In this document: one piece after another, positions 43-36,555 of the stretch
How the letters are laid out: every line of letters begins with the position of its first letter
Numbering within the stretch: position 1 is the first letter of the stretch
Source: a virus
IMG/VR virus record: IMGVR_UViG_3300006051_000003
Span: 1-37,047 of that record
Direction: 5' to 3' (one strand)
DNA length: 37,047 nucleotides
Made by a program: the position numbers and the translations under genes
The notes under the pieces: generated by a model
Database searches by the model: none
Told to the model about the DNA's origin: nothing
Seen by the model: the letters and a program-made list of their open reading frames with translations, nothing else

Positions 43-119
43 GCCCGAATAGCTCAGCTGGTTAGAGCACTTGACTGTTAATCAGGGGGTCGTTGGTTCG
101 AGTCCAACTTCGGGCGCCA
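43..119 (+). tRNA. tRNA-Asn (anticodon GTT), phage integration site
   Basis: A full cloverleaf can be drawn. The acceptor strands GCCCGAA (43-49) and TTCGGGC (109-115) pair, the discriminator is G116, and CCA is encoded at 117-119. The anticodon loop CTGTTAA carries GTT at 77-79, and the T loop GTTCGAGTC is canonical. The 3' part from 73 onward is shared with attR, so the phage integrated into the tRNA and rebuilt its 3' end; the gene should remain functional. The promoter lies just upstream, and a phage-supplied terminator follows at 127-156. Confidence 0.97.
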
Positions 120-120
120 A
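73..120. repeat. attL core, 48-bp direct repeat
   Basis: These 48 bp are identical to 36498-36545. They run from the anticodon stem of tRNA-Asn through the encoded CCA plus one base. The flanks diverge immediately: T72 here versus A36497, and A121 versus G36546. The identity block is therefore the crossover region of the integrase. Use of a tRNA 3' half as attB is typical of tyrosine-recombinase phages. Confidence 0.95.
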
Positions 121-126
121 AATCAA

Positions 127-6422: not shown

Positions 6423-6607
6423 GCGACCCCCGAATGGCGTCCGGAAAGGCGGCCTCTAATGAAATCCAATGCTTCTCTCGCTTCTGCCTCAGGGCTGAAG
6501 TAAGCGGCCTCTGATCCTTCGATTACTTCCAAGATCAGCTCTAGCGCGCGCGCCTCTGTCATCCACGGCCAAGGCTCATTTGCGGCGGGGCTGCGGGATA
6601 GGCTCAT
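6419..6607 (-). CDS. Small hypothetical protein, 62 aa
   Basis: The protein starts MSLSRSPAANEPWPWMTEAR and continues with a helical, acidic segment (ALELILEVIEGSEAAYF, then EAREALDFIRGRLSG). No family is recognised. ATG 6607 overlaps the upstream stop (ATGA), and its own TGA overlaps the next GTG start. The longer frame to 6859 is rejected because it would overlap the upstream gene along most of its length. Confidence 0.6.
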   Translation of the reverse strand: MSLSRSPAANEPWPWMTEARALELILEVIEGSEAAYFSPEAEAREALDFIRGRLSGRHSGVA

Positions 6608-6891
6608 GCGGATTCCGCCTTCGCAATCTCTGCACGCTTCTTGTCGATGTTGGCCTGCACCTTGTCTGCTGACTTCTGCTTCAGATTCAGTTGGCCGCGC
6701 GCCCACTCGATTGCCTCGTGCTTGGAATCGAACAGATCCTTGGGATGAAAGGTCTTGCCTTTGCTGTCTTCGAGCTCGCGACGCTTCCATGTGCGCGGGC
6801 CGGAGTAGAAGCCGACGATTTCGACAGCCACTGGCTTGAAGCTCGGCATCAACCGCCATGCGGTGTAAGGAAATTTCGTGTTGTCAGTCAT
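6604..6891 (-). CDS. Hypothetical protein, 95 aa
   Basis: The N-terminal half looks beta-rich (FPYTAWRLMPSFKPVAVEIVGF), and the C-terminal half is a charged helix (KSADKVQANIDKKRAEIAKAE). A block FHPKDLFDSKHEAIEWARG in the middle is typical of small phage proteins of unknown function. It lies 1 bp from the 32-residue membrane protein upstream and overlaps the downstream gene by 4 bp. Confidence 0.65.
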   Translation of the reverse strand: MTDNTKFPYTAWRLMPSFKPVAVEIVGFYSGPRTWKRRELEDSKGKTFHPKDLFDSKHEAIEWARGQLNLKQKSADKVQANIDKKRAEIAKAESA

Positions 6892-6892
6892 G

Positions 6893-6991
6893 TCAGGGGT
6901 CCATTCCGTAAGAGCGCTCGAACCAGTGCAGGACGAGCAGAGAGAGGGCCAGCGCGGCGATCCAGATGCAGAGCCACGCCAGCGGATTCAT
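6893..6991 (-). CDS. Microprotein, single membrane helix, 32 aa
   Basis: The frame from ATG 6991 encodes MNPLAWLCIWIAALAL followed by SLLVLHWFERSYGMDP. It is one hydrophobic helix (about 4-23) and a short charged tail. Its ATG overlaps the TGA of the upstream gene (ATGA), and only one base separates its stop from the next start. That exact packing is the main evidence that it is translated. Function is unknown. Confidence 0.55.
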   Translation of the reverse strand: MNPLAWLCIWIAALALSLLVLHWFERSYGMDP

Positions 6992-7194
6992 GCGAGTAGG
7001 GCCAGACAGGCGCCGGCCGCAGCCAGCGCGATAAATGTCAGGTCGTACAGATCCCAGTCCGCGCCGGCTTGGTGTTCGTGCCCTGGCAGGCGCTTCACGC
7101 CCTCGGGCTTCGGGACTTCGCGGCCGCGCTCGATGTCCGCGTTTGCGGTCAGCACGTCGGTGCTGTCCACCACCGTCAGGCCGTTAGCGTCCAT
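6988..7194 (-). CDS. Small C-tail-anchored membrane protein, 68 aa
   Basis: The product starts MDANGLTVVDSTD. It has a hydrophilic N-terminal part with several His and Glu residues (PGHEHQAGADWD) and ends in a hydrophobic segment LTFIALAAAGACLALLA, a tail anchor. GAGGTG lies at a suitable distance before ATG 7194; ATG 7200 or GTG 7203 are possible alternative starts. It overlaps the neighbouring 35-residue gene by 11 bp and the 32-residue gene by 4 bp. Confidence 0.55.
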   Translation of the reverse strand: MDANGLTVVDSTDVLTANADIERGREVPKPEGVKRLPGHEHQAGADWDLYDLTFIALAAAGACLALLA

Positions 7195-7291
7195 CGCCAT
7201 CACCTCGCATGAACTCGCGGCAGACCGAGATGAAGCCCAAGATCACGAAGGCCAGGCCCATGCCTGCGACGAAGGAGAGCCAAGCGTTCAT
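7184..7291 (-). CDS. Microprotein, single membrane helix, 35 aa
   Basis: ATG 7291 opens a frame reading MNAWLSFVAGMGLAFVILGF then ISVCREFMRGDGDGR: one hydrophobic helix (about 3-24) and a short basic/acidic tail. ATGA overlaps the stop of the upstream gene. It resembles the 32-residue microprotein at 6893-6991 in plan and start (MN-x-x-W-L), so the two may be related, though the similarity is too short to prove it. Confidence 0.55.
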   Translation of the reverse strand: MNAWLSFVAGMGLAFVILGFISVCREFMRGDGDGR

Positions 7292-7521
7292 GGCTGCGCT
7301 CCGGTGACGCGGGCGAGGGCGGTCTTCTGTTCGATCAGTGCACGCTCGCAATTTCGGTACGATTCCAGCTGGTCGACGATCCTGTTGCTAACACCCAGCG
7401 ACTCGAACGCCTTGACGGTCACATCGCTGCACTTGATCAGCTCGGCCACGGCGTCGATGGTCTTGTTCGAGCTTCGGCCGTAGACCTCGCGCAACTCCGC
7501 CAGCACGTCAACGCCGCTCAC
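7288..7521 (-). CDS. Hypothetical protein, 77 aa
   Basis: The protein starts MSGVDVLAELREVYGRSSNKT and is predicted to be helical throughout, with a C-terminal amphipathic helix (RIVDQLESYRNCERALIEQKTALARV). No family is recognised. Its start overlaps the stop of the first gene of the operon by 4 bp, and its stop overlaps the start of the 35-residue microprotein. Confidence 0.65.
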   Translation of the reverse strand: MSGVDVLAELREVYGRSSNKTIDAVAELIKCSDVTVKAFESLGVSNRIVDQLESYRNCERALIEQKTALARVTGAQP

Positions 7522-7829
7522 GACATCACCCCGACCTGAGCCTCGACCATGCGGTTGAGCAACTTGGCGCGTGCCGTGATGCTGCGAAACGACTGCTGCA
7601 GATGACGCGGGACGTTCGTCTGAGCGCAGGCCCAGTCCAGCGCGGCAAGCGCGCCGCGAACGTCAGAGACCAGTTCGGCCACGTCGCCGGACTCGATCAG
7701 CTTGTTCGCAACGTCGCCTTCTGCGTCGTCTTCGCCATACATCGGCTCGCGGTAGTCCGGCGAGTTCGGGTGGCTGCTGTCGCCAGCCAGATCGCCGAAG
7801 CCAGGCATGCGGTGGTCGTTGAGAGCCAT
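7518..7829 (-). CDS. First gene of the leftward early operon, hypothetical, 103 aa
   Basis: The protein starts MALNDHRMPGFGDLAG and has an acidic middle (EPMYGEDDAEGD) and a helical C-terminus (SDVRGALAALDWACAQ, RSITARAKLLNRMVEA). ATG 7829 is chosen because it has GGAG six bases upstream. The alternative starts at 7889 and 7892 lie inside the promoter -10 and operator, upstream of the predicted transcript start near 7874. Being the first gene transcribed leftward, it occupies the position of lambda N, but it shows no Arg-rich N-terminus, so an antitermination role is unsupported. Confidence 0.7.
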   Translation of the reverse strand: MALNDHRMPGFGDLAGDSSHPNSPDYREPMYGEDDAEGDVANKLIESGDVAELVSDVRGALAALDWACAQTNVPRHLQQSFRSITARAKLLNRMVEAQVGVMS

Positions 7830-7880
7830 CTCGATCTCCAAGCCCCAACCCGGATGGGTGTGTCGTGGGGCGATGGAGTG

Positions 7881-7908
7881 ATTATGCATCAATGCATTCT
7901 TACGTCAA
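7881..7908 (-). promoter_or_regulatory. PL-like promoter of the leftward early operon
   Basis: On the minus strand TTGACG (7908-7903) and CATAAT (7886-7881) are 16 bp apart. Two operator palindromes overlap it, one over the -10 side (7884-7897) and one touching the -35 (7908-7921). The rightward promoter at 9189-9216 has the same boxes, the same spacer length and the same operator placement. This strongly supports PL and PR under one repressor. Confidence 0.8.
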
Positions 7909-7921
7909 TGCAAAAATGCAT
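7884..7921. promoter_or_regulatory. Left operator, two ATGCA-N4-TGCAT palindromes
   Basis: Perfect 5+5 dyads lie at 7884-7897 and 7908-7921. Their centres are 24 bp apart, just over two helical turns, so dimers would bind close to the same face of the helix. The spacers are TCAA and AAAA. The same arrangement recurs at 9176-9213. These are the expected binding sites of the repressor (8687-9139) and the Cro-like protein (9224-9424); the binding itself is inferred. Confidence 0.8.
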
Positions 7922-7965
7922 CGAAATTTCAGTTGGCCGACAAACGGTACTTATCCACAGGCTGT

Positions 7966-8355
7966 TTAGCCCTCGGGAACGAAGATCGCGATCCCGCTGC
8001 CGCTCTTGTGGATTGCGCCACTGATGGACGTCACGCCCGTCCCGGGGTCGGTGTAACCGACGCCTCCGGTTGTCTGGCTGCCCACGCCTTGAAGCAGTAC
8101 GCCATTCGCGCCCAGCTTGGCAGCCTCAGCTTTCAGTCGCTCAATTGCCTTGTTGGTGCGCTGCTGGGGCGTGAGCGCCATAGACCCGCGGCTGGTCGAG
8201 TCCAGCAGGGCCACTTGTTCGTAGCGCGCTGGCGGATCCAGATAGACCTGAACCTGCTCAACCGGAATAGGTGCGCGCTTCTGTCCTACCAGTACGTGCG
8301 ATGACGCACATGCGGCCAGAGAAAGGGCGAGGGCGGCTGTAATCACGGTCTTCAT
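7966..8355 (-). CDS. Small lipoprotein expressed from the repressor operon
   Basis: This 129-residue protein has a classic lipoprotein signal: MK, a hydrophobic core (ITAALALSLAAC) and lipobox L13-A-A-C16. The mature part includes ARYEQVALLDSTS and a helix KAIERLKAEAAKLGANGVLLQ, followed by Gly/Thr/Ser-rich strands and a final IAIFVPEG. This resembles small bacterial outer-membrane lipoproteins of unknown function. It lies downstream of the repressor on the same strand and before the PL block, so it is likely expressed in the lysogen. I infer lysogenic conversion or superinfection exclusion; no catalytic motif is visible. Confidence 0.8.
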   Translation of the reverse strand: MKTVITAALALSLAACASSHVLVGQKRAPIPVEQVQVYLDPPARYEQVALLDSTSRGSMALTPQQRTNKAIERLKAEAAKLGANGVLLQGVGSQTTGGVGYTDPGTGVTSISGAIHKSGSGIAIFVPEG

Positions 8356-8370
8356 GGACGTTCCTTGTGG

Positions 8371-8685
8371 TCAGCAAGCAGGAAGGCAGTCGGGCAGGCT
8401 TGCGCCCATTTCCGCAGCATCAACGTAGCCGCACATCCGGCTGTAGAGGTCGTCGAGCTGAGGTTCGGTGAGGTCTGACATGTACTCTGCGCCTCTCGAC
8501 TCCAGGAAGTGCACGATCGCGTCGTGCCAGTTATGGGAGTCGGCAATGCGCCGGATGGCGCGCATCGTTCGTGCGCGCTTCGAGACGTCGATGGGCCGTT
8601 CCTGCATATCCGCTGGGGGAGGCGGGGGCATCGCTGCCGCGAGCTCGATGGCAAGGGACTTTAGGGCAACCGGATCCAGCGGCAT
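8371..8685 (-). CDS. Hypothetical protein in repressor operon
   Basis: This 104-residue protein begins one base after the repressor stop (TGA, one base, ATG), with AGGAGG nine bases before the start. It has a Pro run (MPPPPPADMQ) near residue 20, then a helical domain (RARTMRAIRRIADSHNWHDAIVHFLESRG) and a second segment with DLTEPQLDDLYSRMCGYVD. No family is recognised. Its tight linkage suggests co-translation with the repressor and therefore expression in the lysogen. Confidence 0.7.
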   Translation of the reverse strand: MPLDPVALKSLAIELAAAMPPPPPADMQERPIDVSKRARTMRAIRRIADSHNWHDAIVHFLESRGAEYMSDLTEPQLDDLYSRMCGYVDAAEMGASLPDCLPAC

Positions 8686-8686
8686 T

Positions 8687-9139
8687 TCAAACCTCCTCGT
8701 TTAGCTCCTCCAGGATCATGCGAACAGCAATGCGCGTGGCTTCCTCGTCGGTTTCACCCAACTCTTCGACCCGGGAGATAACCTTCTCAGCCACCAATAT
8801 TGCGTTCCATGATATGCGGCGAAATCTGCGATCGTCTGGCCTGTGTGCGGCCATGATATGAAGCAGTTCTACCGCCTGAGCCATGTTGGCGTCGTCTCGT
8901 CCCACAGGCTGAGACGGCTCGACGTCCTCGGTCTGGAGGTCGCGATGAACCAGGGCGTCGATTGAGTAACCAAAGAATTTGGACACCGCGAGCAGGCTAT
9001 CCAGCCTCGGGTACTCGGTCTTGCCCGACATGATCCGCTGAACAGTGGACTGCTCGACGCCCAGCTTTTCGCCAAGAGCGGCCTGCTTGATGCCCGCCCG
9101 CGCAGCTAAGTGTCGGAGGTTCTTGCCGAGGTAAGTCAT
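8687..9139 (-). CDS. CI-like phage repressor, XRE-type HTH, no peptidase domain
   Basis: This 150-residue protein has an N-terminal HTH_3 domain. The recognition region is KQAALGEKLGVEQSTVQRIMSG, about 18-39, and is followed by LDSLLAVSKFFGYSIDALV. The C-terminal half (about 75-150) is helical and has no recognisable S24 Ser-Lys peptidase motif. It is divergent from the Cro-like gene, with two operators between them and two more at PL. It should bind ATGCA-N4-TGCAT and maintain lysogeny. Start 9139 fits the HTH domain; the longer upstream frame crosses the operator and cro. Without a peptidase, induction by RecA-stimulated self-cleavage looks unlikely. Confidence 0.85.
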   Translation of the reverse strand: MTYLGKNLRHLAARAGIKQAALGEKLGVEQSTVQRIMSGKTEYPRLDSLLAVSKFFGYSIDALVHRDLQTEDVEPSQPVGRDDANMAQAVELLHIMAAHRPDDRRFRRISWNAILVAEKVISRVEELGETDEEATRIAVRMILEELNEEV

Positions 9140-9175
9140 CCCTGAATTCTCGCCGCCTACCGTTCGTCGGCGCGA

Positions 9176-9213
9176 ATGCAAAGATGCATTGACTACATGA
9201 TGCAACGATGCAT
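9176..9213. promoter_or_regulatory. Right operator, two ATGCA-N4-TGCAT palindromes
   Basis: Perfect 5+5 dyads lie at 9176-9189 (spacer AAGA) and 9200-9213 (spacer ACGA), with centres 24 bp apart as at the left operator. The first touches the -35 and the second covers the spacer and -10 of the rightward promoter. The block also lies upstream of the divergent repressor gene, so it can control both directions, as OR does in lambda. There are two sites here, not three. Confidence 0.8.
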
Positions 9214-9216
9214 AAT
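9189..9216 (+). promoter_or_regulatory. PR-like promoter of the rightward early operon
   Basis: TTGACT (9189-9194) and CATAAT (9211-9216) are 16 bp apart, each matching the sigma-70 consensus at 5 of 6 positions. The transcript would begin at about 9223, immediately at or before the ATG at 9224 of the Cro-like gene, so this message may have no leader. The design mirrors the leftward promoter at 7881-7908. Confidence 0.8.
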
Positions 9217-9223
9217 CGACGTC

Positions 9224-9424
9224 ATGAACCCTTCCAGCGCGATCACCAAGCTCATGGACAGCGGGATGACCGAACAGGCCATCGCCGCTGCGATCAAGGT
9301 CAACCAGACGACCGTCAACAGGATCCGCCGCGGCGTGGTTACGCCGTCCTATGACGTGGGCAAGGCGCTGGTCGACATGGCCGTCGCGCTCGACCAGCCC
9401 AAGCGCCGGAAGCGGGCCGCCTGA
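9224..9424 (+). CDS. Cro-like HTH regulator
   Basis: This 66-residue protein (MNPSSAITKLMDSGMTEQAI) has a helix-turn-helix at about 15-37 (QAIAAAIKVNQTTVNRIRRG), a second helical segment (SYDVGKALVDMAVALD) and a basic tail KRRKR. It is divergent from the repressor and first in the rightward operon, the Cro position. ATG 9224 is chosen because the in-frame ATG at 9176 lies within the operator and promoter. No Shine-Dalgarno sequence is visible and the predicted transcript starts at about 9223, pointing to leaderless translation. Confidence 0.8.
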   Translation: MNPSSAITKLMDSGMTEQAIAAAIKVNQTTVNRIRRGVVTPSYDVGKALVDMAVALDQPKRRKRAA

Positions 9425-9428
9425 CATG

Positions 9429-9605
9429 TCACGCACCCGGCTTAACCCGACTGATCGCACGCCAGTGGTAGCGGCCATCCGCCCACTGCACGGCGAAGGC
9501 TTGGGCGCCCAGGCGCACCAACAGCACAACGCGGTCGCTCTCAACTTCTCGCAGTAATTCCACGTGGTCGGGCTCCGTTTGGGGTCCGGCCATTTTCAGA
9601 ACCAT
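9429..9605 (-). CDS. Possible antisense small gene between cro and cII
   Basis: The leftward frame encodes up to 58 residues ending EVESDRVVLLVRLGAQAF, then AVQWADGRYHWRAISRVKPGA. It has the alternating hydrophobic/charged pattern of a small beta-rich domain and good codon use. A competing rightward frame of 43 residues (9426-9557) looks less protein-like. If real, it would be carried on a transcript running leftward from the cII region towards the repressor, like lambda's PRE message. The start could be 9605 or 9593; neither has a strong ribosome site. Confidence 0.4.
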   Translation of the reverse strand: MVLKMAGPQTEPDHVELLREVESDRVVLLVRLGAQAFAVQWADGRYHWRAISRVKPGA

Positions 9606-9665
9606 CGAGGGGAATCCTGGGGAACACGCCGTCCCCTGCATTCCCAAGGACGCAAAGAGGCCTCT

Positions 9666-10031
9666 ATGCGACACCTCAGCATCACCTACCAAGACGGCCT
9701 GACAGAGCGGTCCCGGAGCCTCCGGGAGCATCTGTTGGTGCAGGTCCATCAGCAGGGCGTGGTCAACGTCGCCGGCAAGCTGGACCTTTCGCCGTCGAAG
9801 CTCTCCGAGAAGCTGGCCGGCTGCGACAGCGGCGGCAAGCCGCGCGGCATGACCATCGACGAGCTGGAATCGTATCTGCGGATCACGGGCGACATCAGCC
9901 CGATCCACTACCTGATTGAGCGGTTCATGACGTGCCCGCAGGCGGCGCACGGCGAGGCCATCGCGGAGATCACCAAACTCATGAGCGCGCTTCCGGCATT
10001 GCTTGAGCGTGCAGGGGTGAAGTGGCCGTGA
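9666..10031 (+). CDS. CII-like regulatory protein (Phage_CP76 family)
   Basis: The 121-residue product starts MRHLSITYQDGLTERSRSLR and carries an HTH around 33-50 (VNVAGKLDLSPSKLSEKLAG), followed by RGMTIDELESYLRITGD. This matches the CP76/CII type of phage regulator, which binds DNA and influences the lysis-lysogeny choice and replication-gene expression. It is third in the rightward operon, after Cro. ATG 9666 is chosen over the longer frame from 9564 because the conserved part starts here and the upstream extension is low in protein character. Confidence 0.8.
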   Translation: MRHLSITYQDGLTERSRSLREHLLVQVHQQGVVNVAGKLDLSPSKLSEKLAGCDSGGKPRGMTIDELESYLRITGDISPIHYLIERFMTCPQAAHGEAIAEITKLMSALPALLERAGVKWP

Positions 10032-10330
10032 CCCACCTCCCCGCGCGCGCGACGGACCCGCTGACCAGTTGGGAGGCGGCCGAGAAGATCACCGATTCCG
10101 GCAAGGCAGCTGACCAGCGCGCCGTGGCGGTGTCGATCGTCCACAAGCACCCTGGGCTCACCAGCTTCGAGCTCTCCATGCTGTGCCCGCTGGACCGCTA
10201 TCAGATGGCGCGCCGCCTGCCGGAATGTCGAGAGGTCCAGAAGGGTGAGGCGCGCGAATGCAAGGTGACCGGCCACATGGCGGTGACCTGGTGGCCTGCC
10301 GTCGCCCAGGCGGAGCCGGTGGCCGCCTGA
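10028..10330 (+). CDS. Hypothetical protein with winged-helix-like fold
   Basis: This 100-residue protein opens at GTG 10028 (GTGA overlap with the CII-like stop) as THLPARATDPLTSWEAAEKI. It is followed by a helix-rich region that reads like a winged helix (ADQRAVAVSIVHKHPGLTSFELS, then YQMARRLPECREV). Small proteins of this kind are common just before phage O-like genes. A DNA-binding role in replication control is plausible but not shown. GTG 10022 is an alternative start. Its stop overlaps the O-like start (TGATG). Confidence 0.65.
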   Translation: MTHLPARATDPLTSWEAAEKITDSGKAADQRAVAVSIVHKHPGLTSFELSMLCPLDRYQMARRLPECREVQKGEARECKVTGHMAVTWWPAVAQAEPVAA

Positions 10331-11145
10331 TGTCCACGCTCGTTATGTCCGCCTGCTGGAACCTGCAGATGCCGCCGACCCCGAAGGCGGTGCTGATCTC
10401 GCTTGCGGACAACGCGAACGACCACGGCGAGTGCTGGCCGAGCATCCCGAAGATCAGCCAGCGGACGTGCTTCAGCGAGCGCGCAGTGCATGGCGCGATC
10501 AAGTGGCTGGAAGAACACGGGCTGGTCATTGCCGATCGCTCGAACGGTCGGCACACGCTCTACGTCGTTCGCCCAGAAGGGTTCAAACCACCGCAGGAAA
10601 TGCACCCCCGCAGCAGCTGCGGTGGCGCAGCAGGTGCAGAGAAACCACCGCAGGAGATGCAGTCACCCCCGCAGATCCCGCAGTCACCCCCGCAGCTGCT
10701 GCGGTCTAACCGTAAAGAACCATCAAGAACCGTCAGTAAAGCAACCGTCAGTAAGCGCGTGACCGCGCAGACCCTGCCGTGCCCTGACGACGTAGACCCG
10801 CAGACCTGGGCCGACTGGCTGACGCTGCGAAAGGCAAAACGCGCGCCGGTGACCGAGACGGTTACCCGAGCGGCACGTCGGGAGGCCGAGAAAGCCGGAC
10901 TTCCGTTGACCCGATTCCTCGAAATCTGGTGCGCCCGAGGATCGCAGGGGCTGGAAGCCGACTGGCTCAAGCCGCACGAGCGCGCCGCAGCATTCACGAC
11001 TGGAGCCATCCATGCAGTCAATCCAAACGGCCGCCAACGCGGCGAGAGCCTCGCTGCGCACTCGGAGCGGATCAACCGACAACTCGACGAACGCGAACAG
11101 CACGGCAACGTCCTCCTGCTCGCAGCAGGCTCGCCCGATGGCTGA
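10330..11145 (+). CDS. Lambda O-like replication initiator with winged-helix domain
   Basis: The 271-residue protein has an N-terminal winged-helix domain (PPTPKAVLISLADNANDHGECWPS, then SERAVHGAIKWLEEHGLVIADRS), as in phage O/DnaT-like replication proteins. A Pro/Gln/Ser-rich linker (about 85-142) follows. The C-terminal domain reads DVDPQTWADWLTLRKAKRAPVTE and GLPLTRFLEIWCARGSQGLEADWL, typical of phage initiators. The N-terminal domain should bind the origin, whose candidate iterons lie in the linker-coding DNA. The C-terminal part should contact the downstream P-like loader. Its 3' end overlaps that gene by 8 bp. Confidence 0.8.
   Translation: MSTLVMSACWNLQMPPTPKAVLISLADNANDHGECWPSIPKISQRTCFSERAVHGAIKWLEEHGLVIADRSNGRHTLYVVRPEGFKPPQEMHPRSSCGGAAGAEKPPQEMQSPPQIPQSPPQLLRSNRKEPSRTVSKATVSKRVTAQTLPCPDDVDPQTWADWLTLRKAKRAPVTETVTRAARREAEKAGLPLTRFLEIWCARGSQGLEADWLKPHERAAAFTTGAIHAVNPNGRQRGESLAAHSERINRQLDEREQHGNVLLLAAGSPDG
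10585..10754. repeat. Candidate replication origin: iterons inside the O-like gene
   Basis: Direct repeats cluster in the linker-coding region. A 20-mer AAACCACCGCAGGARATGCA occurs at 10585-10604 and 10642-10661. GTCACCCCCGCAG occurs at 10662-10674 and 10683-10695, 21 bp apart. Further on, in a stretch richer in A and T, AACCGTCAGTAA occurs at 10728-10739 and 10743-10754. Lambdoid phages place their origin iterons, followed by an AT-rich segment, inside gene O. The layout here is the same; origin function is inferred, and a low-complexity linker is the alternative explanation. Confidence 0.5.
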
Positions 11146-36497: not shown

Positions 36498-36545
36498 GAC
36501 TGTTAATCAGGGGGTCGTTGGTTCGAGTCCAACTTCGGGCGCCAA
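36498..36545. repeat. attR core, 48-bp direct repeat
   Basis: The segment is identical to 73-120 and represents the displaced 3' part of the original tRNA-Asn. The 5' half of the tRNA is missing upstream, so this is not a functional tRNA gene. Host sequence begins at 36546. Confidence 0.95.
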
Positions 36546-36555
36546 GATTCGAAAA

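Follow-up and report, generated by a model that had tools for sequence, protein, structure and literature searches.

The 37,047-bp virus record analysed here (hereafter the window) contains an apparently whole prophage, whose immunity region is, with a probability of roughly 85%, best read as a bistable lambda-type switch with two operators each at the early promoters PL and PR and with a 12-bp upstream element that would serve as a host regulator site. Two features, the number of operators and the S24 domain missing from its repressor, set this structure apart as a variant from the lambda-type switch proper. The operators, the twin promoters and a repressor/Cro pair had been noticed in a first-pass annotation of this DNA, to which a heteroimmune series of phages and the host-type element are now added. 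Sites, spacings, conservation, covariation and host occurrences are taken from the sequence, and we infer from them binding, repression, PRM activation, leaderless translation and the role of the element.

Operators and early promoters

Exact matches to ATGCA-N4-TGCAT number four in the 37,047 bp as against 0.06 expected by shuffling, with 0 of 100 shuffles reaching four, and they form precisely the two pairs reported in the first-pass annotation. In the left block, the inner OL operator ATGCATCAATGCAT (7884-7897) lies in the gap between the -35 and -10 boxes of the leftward early promoter PL (TTGACG-16-CATAAT, 7881-7908, minus strand), whose plan is kept in relatives, and the edge of the outer OL operator ATGCAAAAATGCAT (7908-7921) overlaps the PL -35 box. 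In the right block, the outer OR operator ATGCAAAGATGCAT (9176-9189) is centred 43.5 bp from the cI start, and the inner OR operator ATGCAACGATGCAT (9200-9213) occupies the -35 to -10 gap of PR (TTGACT-16-CATAAT, 9189-9216, plus strand), with 7 nt between the -10 box and the cro ATG. The start-to-start pitch is 24 bp in the OL pair as well as in the OR pair, in agreement with the spacing proposed earlier. A consensus scan of positions 6500-11000 revealed exactly two sigma-70-like promoters, one under each operator pair, which bears out the previous description of a TTGAC-type -35, a 16-bp spacer and a CATAAT -10 overlapped by each pair, as well as the leftward orientation of the left block and the rightward orientation of the right block.

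Matches to the palindrome with up to two mismatches are at chance level in the window (13 as compared to 15.3 expected) and hence give no sign of a third operator in either block; in the same window scan, none was found in register with either pair or beside the cI promoter within two mismatches. Many further copies of the palindrome had been named earlier as an argument against its operator role. The virus record has none besides the four, and the genome of Stenotrophomonas rhizophila that carries a relative of this prophage has seven in 4.4 Mb, four of which are the prophage operators, so that such copies are not many.

Predicted transcript starts of cro and cI

The cro mRNA is predicted to be leaderless or nearly so, starting at or next to the AUG, because only 7 nt separate the -10 box from the ATG and no Shine-Dalgarno sequence fits in between. 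This 7-nt gap is found in 6/6 class I loci (those sharing the window's operators), with varying letters, and outside class I it amounts to roughly ten nt. For cI, a weak putative PRM -10 box, GAGAAT (9146-9151, minus strand), lies 7-12 nt before the ATG, and a -35 box could not be recognised. Upstream of cI, -11A, -8A and -7T are invariant across six class I loci, which together with the centre of the outer OR operator at 43.5 bp suggests a CI-activated, leaderless PRM. In lambda, an operator is centred 42 bp before the cI start. In most relatives an in-frame ATG directly follows the 12-bp element, which makes their cI start uncertain; the window is without such an ATG.

Class I relatives, heteroimmune series and operator code

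Using the pair pattern in viral contigs or CI homology, five further class I loci were found (L007, L008/L124, L085, L127/L188 and L049), one of which belongs to Stenotrophomonas rhizophila. Both blocks are kept in every relative that covers both, L049 being cut at a contig end, and the 24-bp pitch and every operator are exact in all of them. Nucleotide searches with the immunity region of the window and of two relatives gave no match among GenBank phages, no more than one of 397 family genomes carries a relative, and tblastn with CI gave matches limited to the HTH of unrelated repressors. A single-sequence CI scan of the viral contigs likewise returned no relative, and it was the operator pattern and alignments that did recover them. 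Among class I phages, the 5' leader of the PL transcript CACTCCATCGCCCCACGACAC (window 7850-7880) is also strongly conserved, with adjacent DNA diverged.

Phages with the same cro start but with other operator letters were reached via the 12-bp element, and a Cro alignment scan that used no DNA motif gave 27 loci. Approximately 25 Cro-related loci share the chassis and are spread over several operator classes, with half-sites ATGCA, ATGCR, ATGCC, ATCCC and ATTCS. Half-site positions 1, 2 and 4 are A, T and C in 132/132 half-sites from 33 blocks, where A1 and T2 were partly imposed when siting the operators and C4 was not, and positions 3 and 5 vary by class. Outside class I, some operators have one degenerate half, as for example ATGCATTTGGGGAT. 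Two loci, L235 and L240, have an OR pitch of 32 instead of 23 in the right block, the additional nine bp corresponding to about one helical turn. The only proteins common to nearly all loci are Cro and, in part, CI.

In the aligned sets, Q30 and R35 of CI and Q28 and R33 of Cro are invariant, with the CI of L239 having lysine where others have R35. Residues beside this invariant Q/R pair vary with the operator class, in CI and in Cro in step: a proline follows the glutamine in both proteins (QP) in class V only, and class I proteins have QST or QTT. Class I conservation, this covariation with both helices and the rarity of the palindrome in the S. rhizophila genome all support the earlier prediction that the palindromes are the repressor's target. 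It could be argued that CI alone binds the four palindromes and that Cro acts at another site or on CI itself, since without a third operator next to the cI promoter the lambda-style Cro-preferred site is missing. This is improbable, however, because the Cro helix VNQTTVNRI is equivalent to VEQSTVQRI of CI and changes in step with the operator class. With binding of the palindromes by both proteins as the preferred reading, these loci would represent about 25 natural immunity switches on one chassis with several specificities, in which CI and Cro must both follow the operator; how this class of HTH recognises DNA, and which rules govern heteroimmunity, thus become directly testable.

A conserved 12-bp element at both early promoters

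Absent from the first-pass annotation is a 12-mer, ACCGTTYGTCGG, which is present just outside each operator pair and nowhere else in the window. Its left copy ACCGTTTGTCGG (7937-7948, minus strand) lies 15 bp outside the outer OL operator. On the right, the copy ACCGTTCGTCGG (9159-9170, plus strand) is separated by 5 bp from the outer OR operator and ends 18 nt ahead of TTGACT, and the orientation toward PL and PR is identical. Allowing one mismatch, the OR element is present in 25 of the 27 Cro-defined loci and in the window, always 5 bp from the outer operator, and the OL element is found in all loci covering the left region except L237, always 14-15 bp out, with diverged intervening sequence. 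The OL distance thus exceeds the OR distance by about one helical turn. Measured to the TTGAC of PL, the gap is 28 nt in the window and 27 nt in other class I relatives, again about one helical turn above the 18 nt of PR. In both promoters the element occupies the same face of the helix, ~59 bp upstream of the start at PR and ~69 bp upstream of it at PL. A literature search found no paper describing the 12-mer in this setting.

Several binders were considered and rejected. A universally conserved phage neighbour does not qualify, as only Cro and partly CI are common to nearly all loci. A site for CI alone is at odds with CI tails that differ between classes while the 12-mer is unchanged. BlaI was set aside in view of the separate palindrome, TGACTACA/TGTAGTCA, that the BlaI-like gene possesses. 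The motif given in a paper on the XRE regulator LfsT differs from the 12-mer.

The same 12-mer occurs at promoters of the host family. Its frequency in Stenotrophomonas genomes does not clearly exceed that of the reversed control, and an over-represented general host repeat was dismissed on this count, though position and promoter context of the two differ. Of host sites, 42/64 are non-coding for the 12-mer as compared to 7/40 for the reversed 12-mer (Fisher p ~2e-6, with sites that are not independent, as many of them are orthologues of one promoter). The 12-mer forms a conserved island in intergenic regions that are orthologous and precede purT, aqpZ and the genes of a BlaI-like regulator and of a secreted protein. 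In ~65 of 91 Stenotrophomonas genomes, a conserved promoter carries it ahead of a TTGAC -35 box. Although 5-35 nt were allowed, all host gaps between 12-mer and TTGAC are 17 or 18 nt, with a spacer of varying sequence. In other family members the 17-18 nt spacing recurs before ArsR-type and GntR-type regulators and at an apparent prophage promoter. PR of the window shares this arrangement, with the element in the same orientation 18 nt before TTGAC, and in the S. rhizophila prophage the gaps are 18 (PR) and 27 (PL) nt.

Since the same 12-mer is found at the same 18-nt distance in host promoters, a host regulator that would act on PL and PR most likely binds it. This factor most likely helps both promoters, as a position near -59 and -69 suits an upstream activator, although its role may also be repressive. 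The competing explanation is that the 12-mer is an RNA or recombination element, whose copies, inverted around the cI operon, would pair in the leftward cI transcript or aid module exchange. The copies are indeed inverted near-perfect complements, and three interior changes (in the left copy of the window and in the right copies of L223 and L238) still permit G-U pairs in the leftward RNA. However, neither RNA pairing nor recombination needs distances to the operators that are fixed (5 and 14-15 bp) across diverged sequence, exchange at the 12-mer would separate cI from its operators, and host promoters have single copies whose orientation and TTGAC distance match those of the phage. We consequently regard such an element as a doubtful alternative to the host regulator site.

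Whether a family of temperate phages captured the host element ACCGTTCGTCGG at both early promoters, retaining it with hardly any change as repressor specificities are exchanged between phages, is about an even bet. If such a capture is true, a regulator of the Xanthomonadaceae hosts would directly control the lysis-lysogeny decision, and the phages together would supply a natural code relating operators to the paired helices of CI and Cro. Through the 12-bp element, a signal of host promoters would be linked to the decision of the phage, which provides a handle for finding the host regulator.

Two further loci carry the element. Near position 1500 of L348, an apparent further prophage has the 12-mer 18 nt before TTGAC, with a TAGC/GCTA-type palindrome and an adjoining lipoprotein gene, and is possibly another immunity class. 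At a host ArsR-type promoter (L349, near position 1500), the 12-mer is followed by a pair of palindromes, TTCAACC-N4-GGTTGA(A), lying across and behind the -35 box, as in the layout of the phage blocks.

CI and Cro proteins

Both regulators named in the first-pass annotation are HTH proteins, namely the CI repressor of 150 aa (8687-9139, minus strand), with a 434/P22-type HTH and a three-helix tail, and the 66-aa Cro (9224-9424, plus strand), the most conserved protein of the module. In Pfam, CI matches HTH_3, with no match of the window CI to peptidase S24, and its structure model (mean pLDDT 75) consists of the HTH and three helices, the C-terminal part being all-helical. The solved structures that match the CI HTH best include those of the 434 and P22 C2 repressors, on which it superposes at ~1.2-1.3 angstrom (for 434: 1per_L, phmmer E=4.4e-4; 2or1_L, Foldseek rmsd 1.2 over 60 columns). 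The recognition helices of Cro and CI are equivalent, and Q30 of CI aligns with Q28 of the 434 repressor, a residue that recognises the first A in the 434 operator.

As CI is without an S24 domain, RecA-stimulated self-cleavage of the usual kind should not drive induction, and lambda-type self-cleavage of CI is unlikely judging by the domain search and the model. An SOS-inducible lysogen with RecA-driven CI cleavage, as known from lambda, is very improbable here given the missing S24 match and the all-helical C-terminal model, with representatives of four other operator classes also having CI proteins without S24.

The same palindrome beside S24 repressors

The pair pattern is present in at least 119 stretches of viral contigs, and in 97 of the 119 pattern loci listed, a CI-type HTH relative lies no more than 1.5 kb away. 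Pairs with a 23-bp pitch are found at prophage loci whose 256-aa S24 repressor has the recognition helix GVPQSTLSRILSG, and the peptidase S24 domain is present in the proteins of L083, L110 and L024. S24 repressors with a single 23-bp-pitch pair (L005, L083, L110) are a very common prophage family among the matches listed. These PrtR-like loci resemble the window in the ATGCA-N4-TGCAT pair on a TTGAC promoter and in the QST[VL]xRI helix, but differ in the pitch, in having one block in the loci recovered and in a repressor of ~256 aa with peptidase S24. The ATGCA palindrome is therefore a predicted target that is not private to the repressor of the window, as S24 repressors of unrelated prophages adjoin the same pair, and the same helix pattern beside ATGCA at these loci means that the QST[VL]xRI/ATGCA pairing exists in two separate repressor families. 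A chance or dispersed repeat unrelated to the repressor, for which the sheer number of such stretches might speak, is refuted by the comparative data, since most of the stretches listed adjoin a gene for a CI-type HTH protein whose recognition helix is the same, the window expectation is far below the count and just three non-operator copies exist in 4.4 Mb of S. rhizophila.

Proposed working of the switch and comparison with known systems

In the proposed mechanism, CI dimers would bind the 14-bp palindromes with 434-like geometry, that is five specific, four neutral and five specific base pairs. In the lysogen, CI would occupy both pairs and shut PL and PR, as the inner site inside each promoter and the outer site touching its -35 box imply. 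The outer OR site is placed such that it could activate a leaderless PRM, from which cI would be maintained. Upon the lytic turn, Cro with its equivalent recognition helix would read the same half-sites and probably displace CI from the outer OR site, cro being presumably translated from a leaderless or near-leaderless mRNA, and a host regulator at the 12-mer most likely acts on PL and PR.

Phage lambda has a 24-bp centre spacing between OR1 and OR2, an operator ~42-43 bp before cI and a leaderless cI. The window resembles it in the divergent cI and cro, in operator blocks that flank cI over PL and PR, in the 24-bp centre spacing, in an operator ~42-43 bp before the cI start and in the predicted leaderless cI. 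Its blocks differ from those of lambda in containing two operators each, in the form of 14-bp palindromes and without an OR3, and further differences are a CI without S24, a near-leaderless cro (predicted) and the 12-bp upstream element at both promoters. The earlier description as a two-site variant of lambda consequently holds for the working of the switch and fails for CI, which is not lambda-type, with neither an S24 domain nor a third operator. With 434 and P22 C2 the window shares the HTH_3 fold, a 14-bp palindromic operator and, judging from conservation, an apparent outer-base specificity, and with 434 the glutamine that opens the recognition helix. Unlike 434, it has the half-site ATGCA instead of ACAA, R35 instead of Q33 and another C-terminal domain. 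For the telomere phages N15, PY54 and phiKO2, a primary immunity region is described that encodes a prophage repressor and a Cro-like lytic repressor, and the Cro of PY54 is reported to be specific to one operator site (PMC4488713, PMC4997575). By these descriptions, the three phages are similar to the window in their repressor/Cro-like pair, and PY54 is set apart by the one operator site of its Cro.

Prophage setting and gene content

The prophage lies in a tRNA-Asn gene (43-119), with attL at 73-123 (plus strand) repeated at 36498-36548 (98%), and the host flank gives weak matches to Xanthomonadaceae genomes, at 66-75% in the longer ones. Between the two blocks, the leftward gene order is cI, a 104-aa protein (8371-8685, minus strand) that is kept in class I relatives, and a 129-aa predicted lipoprotein (7966-8355, minus strand) between cI and OL, which matches phrog_27267 of unknown function. 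This lipoprotein was not found among the class I relatives examined and is a candidate lysogenic-conversion or exclusion gene. The first gene of the PL transcript encodes a protein of unknown function (7518-7829, minus strand), and the transcript runs toward a Sak4-like annealing protein, an excisionase and the integrase. The leftward early region also contains an HD-type metal-dependent phosphohydrolase (1560-2009, phrog_990). Rightward, cro is followed by a weak CII-like regulator (9666-10031, plus strand; phrog_101 at E=0.0013, PF06892 below cut-off) and by O- and P-like replication genes. The O-like gene contains, at 10585-10705, ACCACCGCAGGARATGCA twice and inverted pairs of CCGCAGCWGCTGCGG, resembling replication-origin iterons inside an initiator gene. 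A perfect DnaA-box-like 9-mer, TTATCCACA (7951-7959), adjoins the left copy of the 12-mer, and the equivalent place in L157 is occupied by TGTGCATAA.
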